Shown here one piece after another: positions 17,901 through 57,708 of a DNA stretch of 64,000 nucleotides (the first letter of the stretch is position 1; each line of letters starts with the position of its first letter). Below the pieces are notes generated by a model. It saw only the letters and a list, made by a program, of their open reading frames with translations, had not been told where the DNA came from and did no database searches. Where the stretch lies: contig NC_087387.1 of the NCBI RefSeq assembly GCF_963675165.1, positions 1,787,501 through 1,851,500 on the forward strand, written 5' to 3'. Made by a program: the position numbers and the translations under genes. This DNA is from Halichondria panicea (taxonomy: Eukaryota > Porifera > Demospongiae > Suberitida > Halichondriidae).

Positions 17901-19702
17901 TGCTATAATTATAGTTGTAGTTATAGTACCAGCATTCGACTGCCTATACTCTTTTAGTAGAAAAAACAAAACAAAAAGAAGTTTAGTCTCCTCAGTGCAG
18001 TAACAGTCTTTCTCATGCACTCACTCAATAATTTCGCTCAGATATGTTCTCTCTCAGCACAGTTAACTTCCCCTCCAAAATAAAATTTCCTTTAAAATTA
18101 ATTACCCAAATTAATTTTCCTCCTAAAAAATAAATAATAATAATAAATTTAAAATTTAACAGTTAGTGCACATCATATAATTATACTATCCCATTACATT
18201 ATACAGACTCAAGCTCTGAAGATGACTCCACTGATGATGTATCAACAAACGAAGACACTGGTATAAATGCATGCAGCATGTACTGTCTTGTAAGCCTTCT
18301 GTGACACTCACTATGTTTGCATGGGCAATACCGTATATACTCCACCCGAGATTATGCCCACCCAAAATTTATATAGCCAAAAACGATAGTTAATTTACTC
18401 GAATTTACGCCCACCGATTGAGCTCAAATTGGTGTAATTAATATAGTTATACGTATATACAATAAATGCAAAATAATGAAAGTCACAATATAATTATCAA
18501 AGGTAATGCATGGGTAAAGTATAACTAGGCCCAAAGAAAATTAACTCACTGTATACATGTTGTCATCGTCATCAAAAAAAGTTGCTCTTTGTCTCTCTAT
18601 ACAATAGGAGTAATTGGATAAGCAGATGTGCATAGCTATTTTTAGAGCCTATAATTATTACCGCTCTTATACACAACAAACGGCTTCTCTAACATGCTTG
18701 ACAAACTGCATAAACTGATCAATCTCACCGAAACTGATTGGTGTATTTTTGAAAAATTAGTCTTTCACTTAAAAGCGAGGGTGGGTATAATCTTGCTATA
18801 GAATATCCATATACATACTTATATAACTATAGACAATTCTGATGAGGAGCAGTCATCAAATGAAGATCAGACGGACACAGATTTCCTTGGTGGGTTTGAG
18901 TTTACGCAACATCTTTGCCTATAATTACGTACGTTTCATACATGCATTTTTACTAATATATACAGATAGTCCTCAACCATATTCAATGAAGAATCGACAA
19001 GCTCTGATCATCAACATTGTCAAGCACCCAACGAAAGAGAGACACGGCTCAGACAAAGACAAAGATGCACTGAAAGAAACGTTGAACATACTAGGATACA
19101 CTGTGCATGTCAAACCAGACCTAAAACGCGACGAGATAATTCCAAAAGTTGTCAAATATGCAAAAAAAGACAAACACTGCGACAGTTTTATCTGCTGCAT
19201 CTTGGCACACGGTAGTCAGGGTGTGGTATGTGGGTCCGATGGAAAGAAAGTCGAGATAAAAGAAATTTCAAAGGCACTTAACATGGTAAAACAGTTAAAA
19301 GGGAAGCCGAAAATCTTTTTCTTCCAAGCTTGTCAGGGAAGTGATGCTCCAAAAGCTGAACAAGCCGAAGCTGATGATGGGTCCAATGTACATGTAAGTG
19401 GTGAAGTAGAGATAGACGTAACCATTCCGAAACTGCCTCGAGATAGTGATTTCTTCTACGGCTGTGCATCGTCTTTTGAAACTATCTCCATGCGAGTGCC
19501 TAGCGAAGGATCACTGTACATACAGGCCCTTTGCCGAGTCTTGAAGGAAAAGTACAAAACAGAGGATCTTCTAACCATGGTCACCACGGTCCACTATTTA
19601 GTTGCTAAGGATGAACGATCAGTTAGAAAAGGTGGAAAAGATGTCTTCTACCAACAGCAACCACAGTTAGTGTCTACTTTAAGGAAGCTAGTGCACTTTT
19701 AG
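10190..19702 (+). CDS. Death-domain caspase A with duplicated linker exons
   Basis: A cysteine protease of the apoptotic caspase family. Nine exons join in phase 1 throughout: 10190-10460, 10590-10634, 14159-14203, 14258-14290, 14366-14422, 15082-15126, 18207-18260, 18833-18889, 18966-19702; total 1,344 nt, 447 residues. Residues 1-90 form a death domain (WREIGRALGLKDFDIEGI). Residues 91-202 are a linker in which basic VSKPKRSKRKG units occur three times and acidic SSSEDDSTDD units twice. Residues 203-447 form the p20/p10 protease: ERHGSD (P1-binding Arg), CCILAHG with the catalytic His at 19208-19210, QACQG with the catalytic Cys at 19331-19333, then DSDFFYG and QQPQLVSTL. QACQG is the caspase-8/10 form of the active-site motif. 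Long introns hold a LINE and several MITEs. Exon choice for the mini-exons needs transcripts. Confidence 0.85.
10829..11296. mobile_element. MITE with CAGTGGAGTAGGAACAG terminal inverted repeats
   Basis: A 468-bp element in the first large intron of caspase A. The ends CAGTGGAGTAGGAACAG and CTGTTCCTACTCCACTG are perfect inverted repeats, flanked by the direct repeat TATAG (10824-10828 and 11297-11301). The interior carries G- and C-runs and no ORF. Confidence 0.85.
12142..12180 (+). pseudogene. Decayed copy of the acidic linker exon of caspase A
   Basis: ATGACTCCACTGATGATGT and the following bases match the exon at 14366-14422, including its donor side, but the acceptor and 5' part are gone. 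It marks a third, older unit of the intron-plus-exon tandem repeat seen at 13.7-15.2 kb. Confidence 0.7.
12409..12475. repeat. 67-bp near-perfect hairpin
   Basis: Arms of about 30 bp (ACCACAGCCATGGTATATGG and its inverted partner) with a six-base centre CCTAGT and one mismatch. It lies inside an intron of caspase A. No target duplication is obvious. Confidence 0.8.
13086..13478. repeat. MITE of the TACCGTATA family
   Basis: Begins TACCGTATATGCTCGATCAG and ends with the inverted partner GCATATACGGTA. Internal copies of GTAGCC and CTCAAATAGTAGCCTC repeat within it. The terminus TACCGTATA recurs in the elements at 28.9, 29.2, 43.2 and 43.8 kb, whose interiors differ. Confidence 0.8.
13692..15195. 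repeat. Tandem duplication of an intron block with its linker exons
   Basis: Two units starting at 13,692 and about 14,580 share the ATGCATTTCCTGTCAAAAAA opening, a shared MITE-like piece ending near CGCCTCGAGGCATA, and a 45-nt VSKPKRSKRKG exon. The first unit keeps two further exons (14258-14290, 14366-14422); the second has lost them, leaving only a GAAAACACTAG stub near 15,180. This is how the caspase A linker gained exons. Confidence 0.8.
15384..15461. mobile_element. Miniature palindromic element, TAGCCTCG family
   Basis: A 78-bp fold-back unit with TAGCCTCGATCCCAGGCCG and GGCCTGGGACCGAGGCTA arms. It is flanked by an exact 9-bp direct repeat AGGTAGTGC (15375-15383 and 15462-15470). Confidence 0.88.
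16270..16780. mobile_element. Inverted copy of the ATGCCTCGGTG dispersed repeat, nested in the LINE
   Basis: Reverse-complement relative of 8801-9357, from ATGCCTCGGTGCGCATGCGC to CAGCACCCGCGGTGCTTTCA. It interrupts the LINE between its RT core and C-terminal part, which orders the two insertions in time. Confidence 0.8.
17169..17879 (-). pseudogene. LINE ORF1 fragment with a PHD-like zinc finger
   Basis: A 236-residue open frame. After a basic start (KKPKKKQQ) comes a Cys/His cluster CNLCDGAIKDTEDTLHCEG then CAQFYHRYC, the spacing of a PHD finger. A Thr/Glu-rich middle follows, then KFNIVVYGIPE and SRPTLVRLN, as in the nucleic-acid-binding ORF1 of CR1-type LINEs. It lies just upstream of the RT remains in the same direction. 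The frame is open, but the element as a whole is dead. Confidence 0.75.
18329..18800. repeat. MITE-like block with ATTATGCCCACCC / GGGTGGGTATAAT ends
   Basis: ACCGTATATACTCCACCCGAG at the left is partly mirrored by AGCGAGGGTGGGTATAATC at the right, in the intron before the penultimate caspase A exons. The left arm resembles 62,202-62,292 (ACCGAGATTACGCCCAC), so this is a dispersed family. Confidence 0.55.
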
Positions 19703-23730: not shown

Positions 23731-26730
23731 TTATAGTTGTTTCTTCAACTCCCTGTTAACAGCAGCAAATCCTGTCTGATTCTTGTCTACCAGTACATGT
23801 ATTCGCTCAAGTTGCTCAGATTGTCCATCTAATAAAACACCTTGATGAATTCCAGTATCCATCATTCGTGACAGCTCTTCGCTTATTTTATCCAAGTTAG
23901 CATCGACTGCGCTTGGGTATTGGTGAAGTTGTGTTGTGATGTGTTGTGGCCTGTCCTTCGACTTTGGTTTTGATTTAGGCAGTGGGGTGTTGGGTTGACG
24001 CTTACTGGATTTCCTACCGGATTCCTTTTTGTGTCGCGAGCCAAAAGATGATTTGTTCGTTTCTCTTCCAGGTGTAAGATCAAGTTGTGGCCTGTCCTTA
24101 GAGCTTAGTGGTTTCGATGGGGTTTGGGACGATTGACCCTTACCGGATTTCCTACAGGATTCCTTTCTGTGTTGCGAGCCTTTGATCGTTTCTATATTAT
24201 GTTTTCCACTCGTAAGATCATCCCTCATCTGTTCATGATCTCGTTCGATATGGTTTAGCTTTTCAGTTTGCCGCTCAAGTTCTGCTAAAGTTGAAACACC
24301 CATTGCATTTGTCGCAACAAGAGCATTCACCGATCTTGCTGAAGATTTCTCCATCCGTTGAATCGCCGATTGTTCACGAAATTTCATCTCTTCAGACTTT
24401 TCTTCCTCTTTGTCAAATGGATTTGATCGAGATCTGGTTGGTGGAATCTCATTACTCTTCACTTTTGCTTTGCTAAATGGTTTACTTCTGTGGCTAGCAG
24501 ATTGCTTAGATGCAGAAGATTTCTCAATCGGCAGTACTTCTTTGATTTCCGAACCAAACCATCCACTGAAAAATCCTCGAGACTTTGGCGGTAGTTTGGG
24601 CTGTGTGTCGGTATCAGGTAGTGTTTTGACCGGTGAGAGTCGAATACTTGCTTTCAGATCAGTTTGTATCTGTTCTTGTAGCCTTTCAGTTTTGTCAATG
24701 GAGGCACCTTGATGCAGAAGAGCTTGATTTGTTAACACATCAATCCGATGAGCATCAGTTAAGGTGGCTAAAGACTTCTCACTGGAGATTTCAATTCTGT
24801 TAACTGCTGCTTTGGTTCGAACTTGTTCGGCTTGTGATGTAAACGTATCAGGTGCAGTTTCTTCATTATCTTTAGCGATTCCAGAATCCTGGTGCATCTT
24901 GGCAGTTTGCTTCAATCCTTCTAAGTCAAAATTTGGTAGGGTGGTCTGAGTAGAATTTGGTGGGAGGTCTATATCGAGCTTTGGCAGTGTGGCCTCGTTA
25001 GTAGGAGCTACAGTTTCTGGTTGTTTCTTGCTAGCATCGAGCTTTTGCTGTGTGGAATCGTTGACCTTAGTCACAGTTATCTCCTCAAATTCCTCGAGTT
25101 TGACTTCCTCATCTTTGTTACCGCCAATTAAGGTTTTTTTCATCTTTGTGAAGAACGACTCTTTGTCTGCACCAGTTTTTGATGACTTCTCAATTGGTTG
25201 TTTTTCGGCTGCTTTGTTCTGCTGTCGGCTGTTTTTTTTTTTGGAAGAGTCACCGGACTGCTGTTCAAGTTGAATGTGCAGTCTTTTAATTTGCTCTTCT
25301 TTCTCTCTCATCTTTTCAAGGTGAGTAGTATATTGAGCATTCTGTTCTTTGATATGTTGCTCTTGTTCATTGATTTTCCCCACTTGAGTAGCCAATTGTT
25401 CATTCTGCTCAGTGATTTTCTCACAATGTGAATCGATTTGCTTTTGCTGCTCAGTGACAGTTAGCTGGTGCTGTTCATTTTCTTGCTTCAGTTTTTCTTC
25501 TACGCTCTCGAGCTCATTTTCAGTTCCTTGGAGCTTCTCTAGAAGTTCTTGTTGAGTTTCAATGAGATTGTTGTATTGTAGAATTTCCTTTCCCAAAACA
25601 TGTTCTTTTGCTTCGAGTTGGTCTTTCATTGCTATAATTTTCCGTTCACTCTCTACCAGAAGCTGCTCAGTGCGTGTCAATTTCTCCTTTACCTCGTCCT
25701 TTACATGCACATAATCAAGTAGTTGTAAATCGAAGTTGTCGGTGCCAACGGCCTTCTCTTCTGTTTCACACTCAGTAGTACCCACACACTTGTCTTCCGT
25801 GATTCTCTGTGGTTTCTCTTCGGTTGTTTTGCTCTCGGTGTACAGTGTCGTTTCGGTGAGCGACGCCAGCCTGTCACATAGGTCACTAGCCAGTGGTCGA
25901 TCGGCCTCCTCATCTTTGAGGCAATCCAAAGCAATAGGTAAGAGAGAATGATCATGTGGGATCAGAGAAATGTGGTTGTTTCTACGCTCCAATTCTTTCA
26001 CAAGGGCTTTGATCTTTTCATTGCCGACTATTCTGTCTTCGAGCTTTCCCTGTGGTTTCGGAAACTTTTGCGTCAGAATTTGAATGAGGAGAACTGCAAA
26101 TGAAAAAATATCTCCGCTCTTTTTGAAATCGTCTCCAAAAGCTTCTGGTGGCATGTACACTTCTGTACCAGGAACAGCTGTGTTTGACACACGTGACATT
26201 TTGGTATTCAGAAATTTGGCCATTCCAAAGTCTGATAGCTTAGCATGTCGAGACTTTCCAGCCAAAAGAATGTTGTTGCTTGAAAGATCTCTGTGAACAA
26301 TTTCATTGACATGGAGAAACGAGAGGGCTCTCATGATATCGAGGCAGATGTTGACTTGGACGTGATAGGCAATTGGTTGAGTGGACCCTTCGAGGTATTG
26401 TGTCAGACTTTCGTCCATTAGTTCCATCAGCAATATGGGGAGGCGCGTTGATGGATCTGTGTACATCCCAAGATACTGAATGATATTTGGGTGACGTATC
26501 TCTTGCAAAAATTTAAACTCAGCTTCAAACCTTCGAATTGGAATTCGATGCTCATTTCTACAAGGTGTGGCTTGAGAAGGTTGTACTAGAATCCTATAGA
26601 TCCTCTTTGCGGCACACAACAGTTTGTCACAGATGGCCATGTGCACAGATCCATATGCACCCGCTCCGATTTCGTCTTCAAAAATTGTTATTTCCTTGAA
26701 TCCAACTTCTTCGACAGCTTCAGTTTCCAT
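23731..26730 (-). CDS. Protein kinase fused to a coiled coil and three SNAP-25/29-like SNARE motifs
   Basis: One uninterrupted exon, 999 residues. Residues 12-292 are a kinase of TKL/RIPK-like character: glycine loop GAGAYGSV (22-29), Lys42, HRDLSSNN (146-153), DFG (167-169) and PPE (194-196), so all catalytic residues are present. Residues 335-492 form a Gln/Glu-rich coiled coil. Residues 500-640 are a charged linker. Three segments resemble SNAP-25-family SNARE motifs: 642-695 (HQGASIDKTERLQEQI, Q674), 788-843 (GVSTLAELERQTEKLNHIE, Q821) and 942-999 (LLDGQSEQLERIHVLVDKNQ, Q970). The marked Gln is at the zero-layer position each time. The first two look Qb-like and the last Qc-like, as in SNAP-29. 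FFSGWFGS at 720-727 also recalls the SNAP-29 linker. No membrane segment is present. Kinase activity is expected; SNARE pairing is inference. Confidence 0.92.
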   Translation of the reverse strand: METEAVEEVGFKEITIFEDEIGAGAYGSVHMAICDKLLCAAKRIYRILVQPSQATPCRNEHRIPIRRFEAEFKFLQEIRHPNIIQYLGMYTDPSTRLPILLMELMDESLTQYLEGSTQPIAYHVQVNICLDIMRALSFLHVNEIVHRDLSSNNILLAGKSRHAKLSDFGMAKFLNTKMSRVSNTAVPGTEVYMPPEAFGDDFKKSGDIFSFAVLLIQILTQKFPKPQGKLEDRIVGNEKIKALVKELERRNNHISLIPHDHSLLPIALDCLKDEEADRPLASDLCDRLASLTETTLYTESKTTEEKPQRITEDKCVGTTECETEEKAVGTDNFDLQLLDYVHVKDEVKEKLTRTEQLLVESERKIIAMKDQLEAKEHVLGKEILQYNNLIETQQELLEKLQGTENELESVEEKLKQENEQHQLTVTEQQKQIDSHCEKITEQNEQLATQVGKINEQEQHIKEQNAQYTTHLEKMREKEEQIKRLHIQLEQQSGDSSKKKNSRQQNKAAEKQPIEKSSKTGADKESFFTKMKKTLIGGNKDEEVKLEEFEEITVTKVNDSTQQKLDASKKQPETVAPTNEATLPKLDIDLPPNSTQTTLPNFDLEGLKQTAKMHQDSGIAKDNEETAPDTFTSQAEQVRTKAAVNRIEISSEKSLATLTDAHRIDVLTNQALLHQGASIDKTERLQEQIQTDLKASIRLSPVKTLPDTDTQPKLPPKSRGFFSGWFGSEIKEVLPIEKSSASKQSASHRSKPFSKAKVKSNEIPPTRSRSNPFDKEEEKSEEMKFREQSAIQRMEKSSARSVNALVATNAMGVSTLAELERQTEKLNHIERDHEQMRDDLTSGKHNIETIKGSQHRKESCRKSGKGQSSQTPSKPLSSKDRPQLDLTPGRETNKSSFGSRHKKESGRKSSKRQPNTPLPKSKPKSKDRPQHITTQLHQYPSAVDANLDKISEELSRMMDTGIHQGVLLDGQSEQLERIHVLVDKNQTGFAAVNRELKKQL

Positions 26731-41734: not shown

Positions 41735-42889
41735 CTAGTTGAATTTTACTTGACCTCTTAGGGTAGAAACAAGTTGTGGCTGTTGTCGGTAAGGCCCTTG
41801 ATCAAGGTTATGAACTTTTTCTGCCTCTTGGTAATGAACCCTAGTTACCATGGTCACAAGATCTTCATCTTTGTAATACGATTGGAGAACATTGCAAAGT
41901 TCTTGTATGTATGACGAGCCTAACAGATTATTTCTTGTTGCTCTGGTTTCGAAAGAAGTGGCAAATCCGTAGAAAAAGTCGCTGTCACGAGGAAGAGATG
42001 GCGTGGCTGTGTCAGTAGTTTCAACCTGAAGAGAAGAATCCAGAGGTGGTACGTCTTCCAAGCAATCAGTAATTGTTGATGATGGTGGTAAGTCACTTCC
42101 TTGGCAAGCTTGAATGAAAAAGATTTTGGGCTTTTGATGCAAATACTTTTGGCAAAGATTTTTGGAATTGACTAAAGCTCTCGCAATATCTGCTATTTTG
42201 ACTGTACTTCCATCCAGTCCTTGTATTGCACCTTCTTTTCCATGTGCCAGGATGCAGCAAATAAAGCTATCAGCATTTTCATCTTTGTTGGCATGTTCAA
42301 CAACTGTTGTTTTTATATCATCTGCTGTTGATAAATCATCTACAGACTCGACGGCATATCCCAACGTCTTGAGAGCCTTTTGCAATGCCTCCTTGTCCCT
42401 GTCGGAACCATATCTAGGATTATTTGGATATTTGACATTATTGATGATCAGGGCTCTTCCGTGTGGTTGGATGTTCATCGTATACTGATAAGATTGTCCT
42501 TTAAGTTTCTTGGGGGAAGGACCACCTATGAAACAAAACAGGTATTTGACAAATGCAATCAAACTGCAAAAGTTAAGCTCTATGAAAATATACTCACCAC
42601 TATCATCTCCTTCGATTTTCTTTGAAGGACAATATTTTTCTTGGATTTTCCTTGCTACCTTCCTTTCCTCTGCCTTAAACAAAGCGCTAGCAATATCTTC
42701 CCAATCAAATTCAATATTCCGAAGAGCAAAGATCAACATGTCCATTAGGGCATCTTTGTTTTCTTTGCCTTTTTGGTTTTCAAGAATTCCAGTTCGAACA
42801 CCCAGCTCCACACCAATTCGCCTCCAAATAAAAGATACTGAACTAAGCTCATCCAAGAGTTTGCTCAAATCTTCTTCAGTTAATGGCAT
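41735..42889 (-). CDS. Death-domain caspase C
   Basis: Two exons, 42889-42598 and 42525-41735, give 360 residues. The 72-nt intron is in frame and stop-free, so retention would add 24 mostly hydrophobic residues. A death domain (IWRRIGVELGVRTGILENQ) fills residues 1-90. The protease part has RYGSDRDKEAL (P1-binding Arg), CCILAHGKEG (catalytic His), FFIQACQGSD (catalytic Cys), a 45-residue inter-subunit linker with several Asp residues suitable for self-cleavage, DSDFFYGFATSFETRATRN and QQPQLVSTLRGQVKF. There is no mini-exon linker as in A and D. It is transcribed away from caspase D (starts 2.95 kb apart). Initiator type is likely from the adaptor domain plus QACQG; the activating partner is unknown. 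Confidence 0.9.
   Translation of the reverse strand: MPLTEEDLSKLLDELSSVSFIWRRIGVELGVRTGILENQKGKENKDALMDMLIFALRNIEFDWEDIASALFKAEERKVARKIQEKYCPSKKIEGDDSGEYIFIELNFCSLIAFVKYLFCFIGGPSPKKLKGQSYQYTMNIQPHGRALIINNVKYPNNPRYGSDRDKEALQKALKTLGYAVESVDDLSTADDIKTTVVEHANKDENADSFICCILAHGKEGAIQGLDGSTVKIADIARALVNSKNLCQKYLHQKPKIFFIQACQGSDLPPSSTITDCLEDVPPLDSSLQVETTDTATPSLPRDSDFFYGFATSFETRATRNNLLGSSYIQELCNVLQSYYKDEDLVTMVTRVHYQEAEKVHNLDQGPYRQQPQLVSTLRGQVKFN
42526..42597 (-). other. 72-nt in-frame intron of caspase C
   Basis: Donor GTGAGTA, acceptor TTTCATAG. No stop codon in the frame. Its translation is dominated by Phe, Leu, Ile and Cys, like a short membrane helix. Confidence 0.75.
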
Positions 42890-45838: not shown

Positions 45839-48008
45839 ATGGATCTAGAGCTTGATCTAGATTCACTACTAACAGAGCTGCTAGAAGCTCAAATGCAATG
45901 GAAGTATATAGGAGGGGCACTAGGTCTTGAAGCATACGAAATTGCAGCAATAGATGAAAAGTGTAAAGATGCAAAAGATGCACTTAGAGAAATGCTGACT
46001 ATCGTTCTCCAAAGGAGATCTGTAACCAGGAAACTACTTACAGAAGTTTTAAGCAAATCTTCGATAAAACTCACTAAACTAGCAGCAAAAGGTGAGTATT
46101 ATATATCTCATGCCCCATTTGTCTGCATGTTCTGAATTTGGTATACCTTGTTATACAAAGGCAACTATATATAATTATGCATGCATTTTTCACGTTACAT
46201 TGTTAAACAGCTCATTCATAACTATAATGTTAACTCAAATAATACTTCCTATAATTTATACTGCATATATATTGCATGACTAAAACATAAAAACACAATA
46301 TTGAGTGCTTGGTTCTACTGCTACTGCATGTATGTGCACCTGCAGTTTCAAATCCAAGGAGTCAAGACGATTCCATTGACAGTGAAACACCAGGTAAACA
46401 CACCACCATGCTGCATGTACTTCTATTAATACTGTGTCTATATATAATGTATGTGCGTGCACCTGCAGTTTCAAATCCAAAGAGTCAAGACGATTCCATT
46501 GACAGTGAAACACCAGGTAAACACACCACCATGCAGTACTTCTACATTAATACTGTGTCTTCTATGTAATAAATTTATTATAGGCCGGTATATACATAAA
46601 CAAAATTTGATTGTGGCTATAGCTATAGATGATACTTTCTATAAGAAAGAAGTTAACTCACAGCATAATTAATACATAATTATATAGAGTGCATGGTATA
46701 CATAGGTAGAGCAAAACACACACCAGCATAAAATTATACCACATAACTTGCATACACTATAATAAAATTAATAGAACGAAGGAATAACGGTATAATTATG
46801 CTGTATACAGCCATGTATATATCGCTTTATTCCCTATATAGCTCGAAAGAAGAGAAAGCAAGATGATAGTCCAGACAGTGGGCAGATCAAAAGAATTAAA
46901 AGCGGTGAATATTTTAACCATCTTGAAATAGCATGTGCATATACCGTATTACTAGAATATTTTGCAGGTGAAAAACTTTTGCGAATGAGCCAAATCAGCA
47001 GAAAATTTGACCCTTACATCTATAATAATTGCATTCTGGCAAGGATCGTGTGTATTTACTAGTAATAATAATAGGCTTTGCGGATTTTATTGTTGCGAAT
47101 TGATCGACCATCGCAAAGTTCGCAAATGTTTGATACTCGCAAAACATTCTATGGTATACAGTTTGCATGCATGTTTACATGCATGCTGTCAGTTTCCCGT
47201 TTTGTTTTGTATAGGTGATGTATTAAAAACGCCAGGCCGTCTTGAACCACCTTATAAGTACACAATGACAAACCAACTACATGGAAATGCCCTAATCATC
47301 AACAACGTCAATTATAAAACTCCATTAACGGTTAGAAAAGGTTCTAACGAGGACAAGAAGGAGTTGAAAAAGGCTCTCGAGACGTTGGGATATGCCGTAG
47401 AGTCTGTAGATGATTTACCAACAGCAGATGATATAAAAACAACAGTTGTTGAGCATGCCAACAAAAATTCAAATCCCGATAGCTTTATTTGCTGCATTTT
47501 GGCACACGGAGAAGAAGGTGCAATAGTAGGACTGGATGGAAGTACGATCAAAATAGCTGAAATTTCAAGAGCTCTAGTCGAACCCCCAAATCCTTGTCAA
47601 AAGTATTTGCACCAAAAGCCTAAAATCTTTTTTATTCAAGCTTGCCAAGGTAGAGACACACCATCAGAACTTGATTGCACAAAAGACGTACCAACTGATC
47701 CTTCTCTTCCGGTTGAAAATCTCGACACGGGTATACCATCTCTTCCTCGTGACAGTGACTTTTTCTACGGATTTGCCTCTTCGTTTGAAACCGCAGCAAC
47801 ACGAAACCCAGATCACGGTGCATCGTATATACAAACCCTTTGCAACGTTCTTGAAACACATTACAAAGATGAAGATCTTGTGACGATGGTAACCAGGGTT
47901 CATTTCAAAGAGGCAGAAAATCCCCATAATATCGGGAATACAAAGCCCTTATACCGACAACAGCCACAACTTGTTTCTACTCTAAGAGGTCAAGTAAAGT
48001 TCAACTAG
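45839..48008 (+). CDS. Death-domain caspase D
   Basis: Five exons: 45839-46091, 46346-46393, 46469-46516, 46842-46904, 47215-48008. They join in phase 1 to 401 residues. A death domain (QWKYIGGALGLEAYEIAAI) fills residues 1-84. The linker (85-137) has two nearly identical 48-nt exons, VSNPRSQDDSIDSETPG and VSNPKSQDDSIDSETPG, then a basic exon (ARKKRKQDDSPDSG). The protease has RKGSNEDKKEL (Arg), CCILAHGEEG (His codon 47505-47507), FFIQACQGRD (Cys codon 47643-47645), DSDFFYGFASSFETAATRN and QQPQLVSTLRGQVKF. An AATAAA lies at 48214-48219. The p20/p10 part is very close to caspase C; the exon layout is that of caspase A. The twin linker exons lie 123 bp apart, a recent local duplication. Confidence 0.9.
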
Positions 48009-51434: not shown

Positions 51435-52589
51435 CTAGTTGAATTTTACTTGACCTCTTAGGGTAGAAACAAGTTGTGGCTGTTGTCGGTAAGGCCCTTG
51501 ATCAAGGTTATGAACTTTTTCTGCCTCTTGGTAATGAACCCTAGTTACCATGGTCACAAGATCTTCATCTTTGTAATACGATTGGAGAACATTGCAAAGT
51601 TCTTGTATGTATGACGAGCCTAACAGATTATTTCTTGTTGCTCTGGTTTCGAAAGAAGTGGCAAATCCGTAGAAAAAGTCGCTGTCACGAGGAAGAGATG
51701 GCGTGGCTGTGTCAGTAGTTTCAACCTGAAGAGAAGAATCCAGAGGTGGTACGTCTTCCAAGCAATCAGTAATTGTTGATGATGGTGGTAAGTCACTTCC
51801 TTGGCAAGCTTGAATGAAAAAGATTTTGGGCTTTTGATGCAAATACTTTTGGCAAAGATTTTTGGAATTGACTAAAGCTCTCGCAATATCTGCTATTTTG
51901 ACTGTACTTCCATCCAGTCCTTGTATTGCACCTTCTTTTCCATGTGCCAGGATGCAGCAAATAAAGCTATCAGCATTTTCATCTTTGTTGGCATGTTCAA
52001 CAACTGTTGTTTTTATATCATCTGCTGTTGATAAATCATCTACAGACTCGACGGCATATCCCAACGTCTTGAGAGCCTTTTGCAATGCCTCCTTGTCCCT
52101 GTCGGAACCATATCTAGGATTATTTGGATATTTGACATTATTGATGATCAGGGCTCTTCCGTGTGGTTGGATGTTCATCGTATACTGATAAGATTGTCCT
52201 TTAAGTTTCTTGGGGGAAGGACCACCTATGAAACAAAACAGGTATTTGACAAATGCAATCAAACTGCAAAAGTTAAGCTCTATGAAAATATACTCACCAC
52301 TATCATCTCCTTCGATTTTCTTTGAAGGACAATATTTTTCTTGGATTTTCCTTGCTACCTTCCTTTCCTCTGCCTTAAACAAAGCGCTAGCAATATCTTC
52401 CCAATCAAATTCAATATTCCGAAGAGCAAAGATCAACATGTCCATTAGGGCATCTTTGTTTTCTTTGCCTTTTTGGTTTTCAAGAATTCCAGTTCGAACA
52501 CCCAGCTCCACACCAATTCGCCTCCAAATAAAAGATACTGAACTAAGCTCATCCAAGAGTTTGCTCAAATCTTCTTCAGTTAATGGCAT
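51435..52589 (-). CDS. Death-domain caspase C, second copy
   Basis: Identical over its whole length to 41735-42889, with exons 52589-52298 and 52225-51435. With introns and flanks also identical, it is best read as the same gene assembled twice. If long reads show a true tandem copy, it would be a complete second gene. Confidence 0.7.
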   Translation of the reverse strand: MPLTEEDLSKLLDELSSVSFIWRRIGVELGVRTGILENQKGKENKDALMDMLIFALRNIEFDWEDIASALFKAEERKVARKIQEKYCPSKKIEGDDSGEYIFIELNFCSLIAFVKYLFCFIGGPSPKKLKGQSYQYTMNIQPHGRALIINNVKYPNNPRYGSDRDKEALQKALKTLGYAVESVDDLSTADDIKTTVVEHANKDENADSFICCILAHGKEGAIQGLDGSTVKIADIARALVNSKNLCQKYLHQKPKIFFIQACQGSDLPPSSTITDCLEDVPPLDSSLQVETTDTATPSLPRDSDFFYGFATSFETRATRNNLLGSSYIQELCNVLQSYYKDEDLVTMVTRVHYQEAEKVHNLDQGPYRQQPQLVSTLRGQVKFN

Positions 52590-55538: not shown

Positions 55539-57708
55539 ATGGATCTAGAGCTTGATCTAGATTCACTACTAACAGAGCTGCTAGAAGCTCAAATGCAATG
55601 GAAGTATATAGGAGGGGCACTAGGTCTTGAAGCATACGAAATTGCAGCAATAGATGAAAAGTGTAAAGATGCAAAAGATGCACTTAGAGAAATGCTGACT
55701 ATCGTTCTCCAAAGGAGATCTGTAACCAGGAAACTACTTACAGAAGTTTTAAGCAAATCTTCGATAAAACTCACTAAACTAGCAGCAAAAGGTGAGTATT
55801 ATATATCTCATGCCCCATTTGTCTGCATGTTCTGAATTTGGTATACCTTGTTATACAAAGGCAACTATATATAATTATGCATGCATTTTTCACGTTACAT
55901 TGTTAAACAGCTCATTCATAACTATAATGTTAACTCAAATAATACTTCCTATAATTTATACTGCATATATATTGCATGACTAAAACATAAAAACACAATA
56001 TTGAGTGCTTGGTTCTACTGCTACTGCATGTATGTGCACCTGCAGTTTCAAATCCAAGGAGTCAAGACGATTCCATTGACAGTGAAACACCAGGTAAACA
56101 CACCACCATGCTGCATGTACTTCTATTAATACTGTGTCTATATATAATGTATGTGCGTGCACCTGCAGTTTCAAATCCAAAGAGTCAAGACGATTCCATT
56201 GACAGTGAAACACCAGGTAAACACACCACCATGCAGTACTTCTACATTAATACTGTGTCTTCTATGTAATAAATTTATTATAGGCCGGTATATACATAAA
56301 CAAAATTTGATTGTGGCTATAGCTATAGATGATACTTTCTATAAGAAAGAAGTTAACTCACAGCATAATTAATACATAATTATATAGAGTGCATGGTATA
56401 CATAGGTAGAGCAAAACACACACCAGCATAAAATTATACCACATAACTTGCATACACTATAATAAAATTAATAGAACGAAGGAATAACGGTATAATTATG
56501 CTGTATACAGCCATGTATATATCGCTTTATTCCCTATATAGCTCGAAAGAAGAGAAAGCAAGATGATAGTCCAGACAGTGGGCAGATCAAAAGAATTAAA
56601 AGCGGTGAATATTTTAACCATCTTGAAATAGCATGTGCATATACCGTATTACTAGAATATTTTGCAGGTGAAAAACTTTTGCGAATGAGCCAAATCAGCA
56701 GAAAATTTGACCCTTACATCTATAATAATTGCATTCTGGCAAGGATCGTGTGTATTTACTAGTAATAATAATAGGCTTTGCGGATTTTATTGTTGCGAAT
56801 TGATCGACCATCGCAAAGTTCGCAAATGTTTGATACTCGCAAAACATTCTATGGTATACAGTTTGCATGCATGTTTACATGCATGCTGTCAGTTTCCCGT
56901 TTTGTTTTGTATAGGTGATGTATTAAAAACGCCAGGCCGTCTTGAACCACCTTATAAGTACACAATGACAAACCAACTACATGGAAATGCCCTAATCATC
57001 AACAACGTCAATTATAAAACTCCATTAACGGTTAGAAAAGGTTCTAACGAGGACAAGAAGGAGTTGAAAAAGGCTCTCGAGACGTTGGGATATGCCGTAG
57101 AGTCTGTAGATGATTTACCAACAGCAGATGATATAAAAACAACAGTTGTTGAGCATGCCAACAAAAATTCAAATCCCGATAGCTTTATTTGCTGCATTTT
57201 GGCACACGGAGAAGAAGGTGCAATAGTAGGACTGGATGGAAGTACGATCAAAATAGCTGAAATTTCAAGAGCTCTAGTCGAACCCCCAAATCCTTGTCAA
57301 AAGTATTTGCACCAAAAGCCTAAAATCTTTTTTATTCAAGCTTGCCAAGGTAGAGACACACCATCAGAACTTGATTGCACAAAAGACGTACCAACTGATC
57401 CTTCTCTTCCGGTTGAAAATCTCGACACGGGTATACCATCTCTTCCTCGTGACAGTGACTTTTTCTACGGATTTGCCTCTTCGTTTGAAACCGCAGCAAC
57501 ACGAAACCCAGATCACGGTGCATCGTATATACAAACCCTTTGCAACGTTCTTGAAACACATTACAAAGATGAAGATCTTGTGACGATGGTAACCAGGGTT
57601 CATTTCAAAGAGGCAGAAAATCCCCATAATATCGGGAATACAAAGCCCTTATACCGACAACAGCCACAACTTGTTTCTACTCTAAGAGGTCAAGTAAAGT
57701 TCAACTAG
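55539..57708 (+). CDS. Death-domain caspase D, second copy
   Basis: Identical to 45839-48008. Exons 55539-55791, 56046-56093, 56169-56216, 56542-56604, 56915-57708. Same caution as for the second caspase C. The p10 relic and the shared 3' flank follow at 58,300-58,530 and 58,638-58,860. Confidence 0.7.

Follow-up and report, generated by a model that had tools for sequence, protein, structure and literature searches.

In other systems the SNARE machinery is gated through phosphorylation by kinases that are proteins in their own right (PMC10968809; PMC10022743). For ULK1-YKT6, TBK1-STX17, IKK-SNAP23 and mTORC1-VAMP8, the phosphorylated machinery is of the class considered here; kinase and SNARE are separate proteins in each pair, whereas the protein described below unites both in one chain. 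Searches of open-licence papers, judged by titles and abstract openings, turned up no kinase-SNARE fusion. Among the SNAREs themselves, SNAP29 is marked by an N-terminal NPF motif that binds EHD1 and by the absence of a cysteine stretch, as described in PMC2841205.

The window is a stretch of 64,000 nucleotides from the sponge Halichondria panicea (NC_087387.1, positions 1,787,501 to 1,851,500). An initial annotation had proposed an open reading frame (ORF) at 23731..26730 of this window, leaving its strand unnamed. The ORF is present on the minus strand, with its ATG at 26730, its stop codon ending at 23731 and a length of 999 amino acids, while the plus strand, read over the same interval, is riddled with stops. 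By eye, the start codon lies in a good context (ACCATGG). A second copy, an ORF of 1028 amino acids, was found 2.55 Mb away (L021:2643-5729, plus strand, within C11:4361500-4369500), and both copies share an ATTAAA sequence 3' of the stop codon. The claimed chain of a kinase, a coiled coil, two Qb-like segments (Qb1 and Qb2) and a Qc-like segment is encoded in a single frame and recurs in the same order in this diverged copy. We regard it as almost certain that a kinase is joined to a SNAP29-like Qb-Qb-Qc module on a single chain. It is very improbable that two genes were misread as one, through either an assembly chimera or splicing that separates the kinase and SNARE parts. An acceptor-like CAG, seen by eye 19 bases 5' of the ATG in both copies, makes nearby splicing possible, but the identical, continuous order at two distant places with diverged flanks argues against two genes, as do the kinase relatives described below, which are also long single ORFs. 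An assembly chimera in particular is rejected on the strength of the identical order at the second, diverged locus.

Elsewhere in the window, three long ORFs (18842-19702, 41735-42889 and 47007-48008) encode caspases, a Peptidase_C14 domain being found in all three that were scanned. ORFs of equal length lie 9,700 bases further on (51435-52589 and 56707-57708, the Peptidase_C14 scan being confined to the former three), a spacing that suggests a 9.7-kb tandem duplication.

The kinase domain (25876..26679, minus strand; aa 18-285) accounts for all Pfam matches of the full 999-residue protein, which are to kinase models only (best Pkinase, E 6.4e-39). Its core had been called intact, and K42, HRD at 146-148 and DFG at 167-169 are all in place; moreover, the glycine loop starts at residue 22 and PPE occurs within MPPEA from residue 193. 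Its catalytic residues are intact, which makes it a candidate active kinase. Among PDB sequences its nearest solved relative is IRAK4 (E 1.5e-23), a match pointing to the TKL group. The likeness to IRAK4-like kinases lies in the kinase domain; IRAK4 itself has a death domain and lacks SNARE helices.

Beyond the kinase lie a coiled-coil region (25246..25740, minus strand; aa 331-495) and the three segments for which SNAP-like SNARE motifs with central Q674, Q821 and Q970 had been claimed. All three glutamines were confirmed as putative zero-layer residues, in Qb1 (24610..24831, minus strand; aa 634-707; Q674 at 24709-24711), Qb2 (24169..24390, minus strand; aa 781-854; Q821 at 24268-24270) and Qc (23734..23928, minus strand; aa 935-999; Q970 at 23821-23823), the last of which ends the protein, as in SNAP29 and as had been noted. 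Pfam does not recognize these segments. No SNARE model passes on the C-terminal part, where the best matches, all far under the cut-off, are to the unrelated TrbI (E 0.042) and next to Sec20 (E 0.49). Likewise, the fusion loci are absent from the places found in genome-wide scans with SNARE (PF05739, seven places) and V-SNARE_C (PF12352, eight places), the latter model being passed narrowly by a plain, unfused SNAP29 gene that the genome also encodes (27.6 versus 27.1 bits, 3.7e-6). Because Pfam was silent on the fusion, direct homology with controls was taken as the test of SNARE identity.

When residues 561-999 were compared with PDB sequences by phmmer, all 34 matches at E ≤ 10 were SNAP-25/29 chains or constructs, although the best of them was modest (E 0.0017). 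The C-terminal part of the second copy reached 8.4e-8 to SNAP-25 across Qb, linker and Qc, with SNAP-23/25/29 chains or constructs containing them making up 36 of its 37 matches. Qb1 on its own matched SNAP-29 in two cases out of two (E 0.005 and 0.007), and the coiled coil, searched as a control, yielded an assortment of ten chains, none of them a SNARE. Additionally, the Qb and Qc helices of plain SNAP29 were slid ungapped across all 999 residues. The two highest-scoring Qb registers placed the zero layer at Q821 (score 144) and Q674 (84), the next register scoring 22, and the highest Qc register placed it at Q970 (101; next 19). Decoys, consisting of 22 distinct kinase relatives, scored below these values (at most 29 for Qb and 36 for Qc), and heptad-class shuffles never reached the observed score (0 of 20000 trials for every one of the six segments in the two copies).

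These comparisons bear on the idea that the segments are general coiled coils resembling SNARE helices by chance, which we consider extremely improbable. The silence of the Pfam SNARE models and the modest PDB score of the window copy speak for it; against it, the matches are to SNAP proteins, the second copy scores far better, and decoys and shuffles fail, so that for Qb2 and Qc a chance likeness is refuted. The initial annotation had held that the lack of a t-SNARE profile hit would count against its proposal; such hits are indeed lacking in Pfam, but the objection is overturned by direct homology and the decoy controls. It had likewise named loss of the zero-layer glutamine in orthologues, and all three glutamines are kept in the one further copy available. 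A single-sequence AlphaFold2 model of residues 636-999 formed helices at the three segments but no confident bundle (pLDDT 58.9, pTM 0.25), and a Foldseek search of the PDB with this model returned no matches.

Within the genome, a search with residues 561-999 matched only the two fusion copies and the plain SNAP29 gene (C8:5022817-5023578), which is itself matched to the Qb helix of SNAP29 in the PDB at 1.9e-9 and is the best in-genome match of the SNARE part. Identities to plain SNAP29 amount to 24/74 for Qb1 and 32/74 for Qb2 (both to its Qb) and 21/65 for Qc. Across 57 core columns, Qb2 has 24-25 residues in common with SNAP29 as against 16-17 with a SNAP25-like gene; for Qb1 the corresponding figures are 19 and 13. 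An NPF motif (24415..24423, minus strand; aa 770-772) directly precedes Qb2, away from the protein N-terminus; it recurs at residue 809 of the second copy and at residue 5 of plain SNAP29. The window copy has a single cysteine (859) past residue 436 and no cysteine cluster. Judged by its best genome match, the NPF ahead of Qb2 and the missing cysteine cluster, the SNARE part is of the SNAP29 type. It resembles plain SNAP29 in its Qb-linker-Qc order, the position of NPF ahead of Qb, the lack of a cysteine cluster, the glutamine at the Qb zero layer and the protein end right after Qc, but differs in sitting behind a kinase and a coiled coil, in its extra Qb ahead and in sequence (21-32 identities per 65-74 residues). 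The SNAP25-like gene, near the end of C15, has a CCCC stretch by eye.

A recent duplication of Qb2 into Qb1 was considered but finds no support, as the window Qb1 shares 15 of 57 residues with Qb2 but 19 of 57 with the Qb of SNAP29. Qb1 would instead stem from an ancient duplication or from an independent capture.

Comparison of the two copies allowed selection on each part to be assessed. Every one of the 14 coding indels has a length divisible by three, which holds for 6 of 20 indels in the flanks (430 bp on the upstream side and 287 bp on the downstream side). Substitution counts are 33/870 for the kinase, 43/624 for the SNARE segments, 38/327 for the linkers that separate and follow these segments, and 120/634 for the flanks. 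The SNARE segments thus carry about 2.7-fold fewer changes than the flanks (P = 1.6e-10); linkers differ from flanks at P = 0.004 and the kinase from the SNARE segments at P = 0.008. Some of the reduction in coding divergence relative to the flanks could be due to gene conversion. In the kinase, 27 synonymous and 6 nonsynonymous changes indicate strong constraint. In the SNARE segments, 15 synonymous and 28 nonsynonymous changes are not significantly under the neutral expectation (P = 0.06-0.21 as kappa ranges from 1 to 3), and all sequence past the kinase together gives 52 and 104 (P = 0.001-0.07). The SNARE arm appears to be only mildly constrained.

It could be argued that the SNARE part survives as a relic on which selection is relaxed, and that the kinase alone matters. 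Omega estimates of about 0.6-0.7 for the SNARE segments, versus 0.07-0.09 for the kinase and near 0.8-1.0 for the linkers, point in that direction. Nevertheless, substitutions in the segments fall well below those in the flanks, not one of the coding indels breaks the frame, and the three glutamines persist in both copies, which makes a relic unlikely.

A faster evolution of the window copy was also examined and rejected. With SNAP29 as outgroup, 10 window-derived and 3 paralogue-derived changes were counted in Qb2 and Qc, but 8 of the 10 sit next to two indels at the edges of segments, where rows compared without gaps lose their register; leaving these out gives 2 versus 3. For Qb1 the counts are 2 window-derived and 3 paralogue-derived changes, with 11 undecided. 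In the window copy, the linker before Qc (23929-24168, minus strand) is lengthened by 43 inserted residues that, by eye, look like linker sequence repeated imperfectly within itself.

Relatives of the kinase occur at no fewer than 59 further places in the genome, with 46-59% identity, a lower bound given that 135 of 770 candidates were scored. They are long single ORFs in which, by eye, a stretch resembling a coiled coil follows the kinase at the corresponding position. A C-terminal Kelch propeller was detected by Pfam in 11 of the 13 relatives scanned, the exceptions being L027 and L066, while no Kelch model matched the full window protein. In a tree of 35 kinase domains, both fusion copies fell into a clade (100/99) with L026, L027, L028 and L029, within which the branching is unsettled and long branches are flagged by the program; Pfam assigns Kelch to L026 and L028. 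Since 11 of the 13 relatives bear Kelch and the tree places the fusion kinases among Kelch relatives, the simplest account of these sequences would be an arm exchange, the SNAP29-like module sitting at the place of the Kelch propeller. The kinase-coiled coil-Kelch proteins (L026, L028 and L051, for example) are like the fusion in kinase, coiled coil and long single ORF but differ in that the propeller, absent from the fusion, is mostly present, and no SNARE segment was seen in the 22 decoys. The accessible part of PMC6208332 mentions no kinase-Kelch protein.

Several further features of this family were noted. Long single-ORF kinase-coiled coil-Kelch proteins form a large family on C16, C3, C10 and others, and another kinase expansion, at 35-38% identity, is clustered on C3. 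The Kelch-less relative L066 (1244-2404, minus strand) ends in CCSV, which we take to be prenylation-like and which may represent another C-terminal arm change in the kinase family. The Kelch kinase L051 (753-2960, plus strand) lies head to head with plain SNAP29 (L022, 2318-3079, minus strand), with start codons about 1.75 kb apart, and this adjacency is a possible but unproven clue to the source of the module. Among 37 candidate stretches from a search of genome contigs there was one match, at 36% across 53 residues in linker 1 (aa 723-775), to a Geobacter MAG, which was judged to be due to chance; among 18 from a search of viral contigs there was none.

Over the 16 core layers of the SNARE arm, residues are mostly hydrophobic or small, as in SNAP29, with a zero-layer glutamine in Qb1, Qb2 and Qc of both copies, but polar exceptions occur in all three motifs. 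In Qb1, both copies carry Gln at layer +3. The window copy also carries Asp at -3, a layer at which the second copy and SNAP29 have Gly, together with Ser at +7 and Lys at +8. An acidic change at layer -3 is known to damage Qb helices of the SNAP25 type. Qb1 appears to be a real motif, yet the least canonical of the three. Qb2 has His at +3, and Qc has Gln at -2, Asn at +4 and Gln at +8.

One could suppose that the protein is a working Qbc-SNARE, in which Qb2 and Qc drive fusion like plain SNAP29 and the attached kinase toggles its own protein. The zero-layer glutamines of Qb2 and Qc in both copies, the hydrophobic or small character of most layers and the termination of the protein after Qc all agree with this. 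Against it stand the polar layers of Qb2 (+3) and Qc (-2 and +4) and the mild constraint, although the former objection is weak, since the Qc of plain SNAP29 itself has Asp at +4 and Ser at the zero layer, a position occupied by Gln in either fusion copy. Moreover, a plain SNAP29 gene is present for that job, and we consider a working Qbc-SNARE unlikely.

The reading that we lean towards, and hold to be somewhat probable, is that the kinase docks on SNARE complexes via its SNAP29-like arm. This arm would be the targeting and docking domain of the kinase, in the role of Kelch, which is assumed to be the docking domain of the relatives. Qb2 and Qc would enter, or compete for, complexes of syntaxin (Qa) and VAMP (R), while NPF may recruit EH-domain proteins of the recycling pathway and the coiled coil may oligomerize the kinase. 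Once docked, the kinase would phosphorylate SNAREs or adjacent trafficking proteins, and this phosphorylation might act as a brake or timer on fusion events of the SNAP29 type. Qb1 would more likely be a competing or self-binding helix than an extra fusion helix. Docking or competition is favoured over efficient fusion because of the imperfect layers and the mild constraint, a preference that the polar layers of plain SNAP29 would temper. More tentatively, and with less than even confidence, the protein may be a single-chain SNARE-kinase that joins SNAP29-type bundles and phosphorylates them, Kelch having been exchanged for a doubled-Qb module, and that gates itself or poisons the bundle.

The locus unites on one chain a regulator and a component of the machinery that kinases usually act on from outside. 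The kinases known to tune SNARE assembly are free-standing enzymes, and a natural fusion would lock enzyme and target together; if true, it would be a natural test of the effect of phosphorylation on a Qbc-SNARE. The arrangement also suggests that SNAP29 lends itself to capture as a module, and that an expanded kinase family can gain a new address by exchange of its C-terminal arm.
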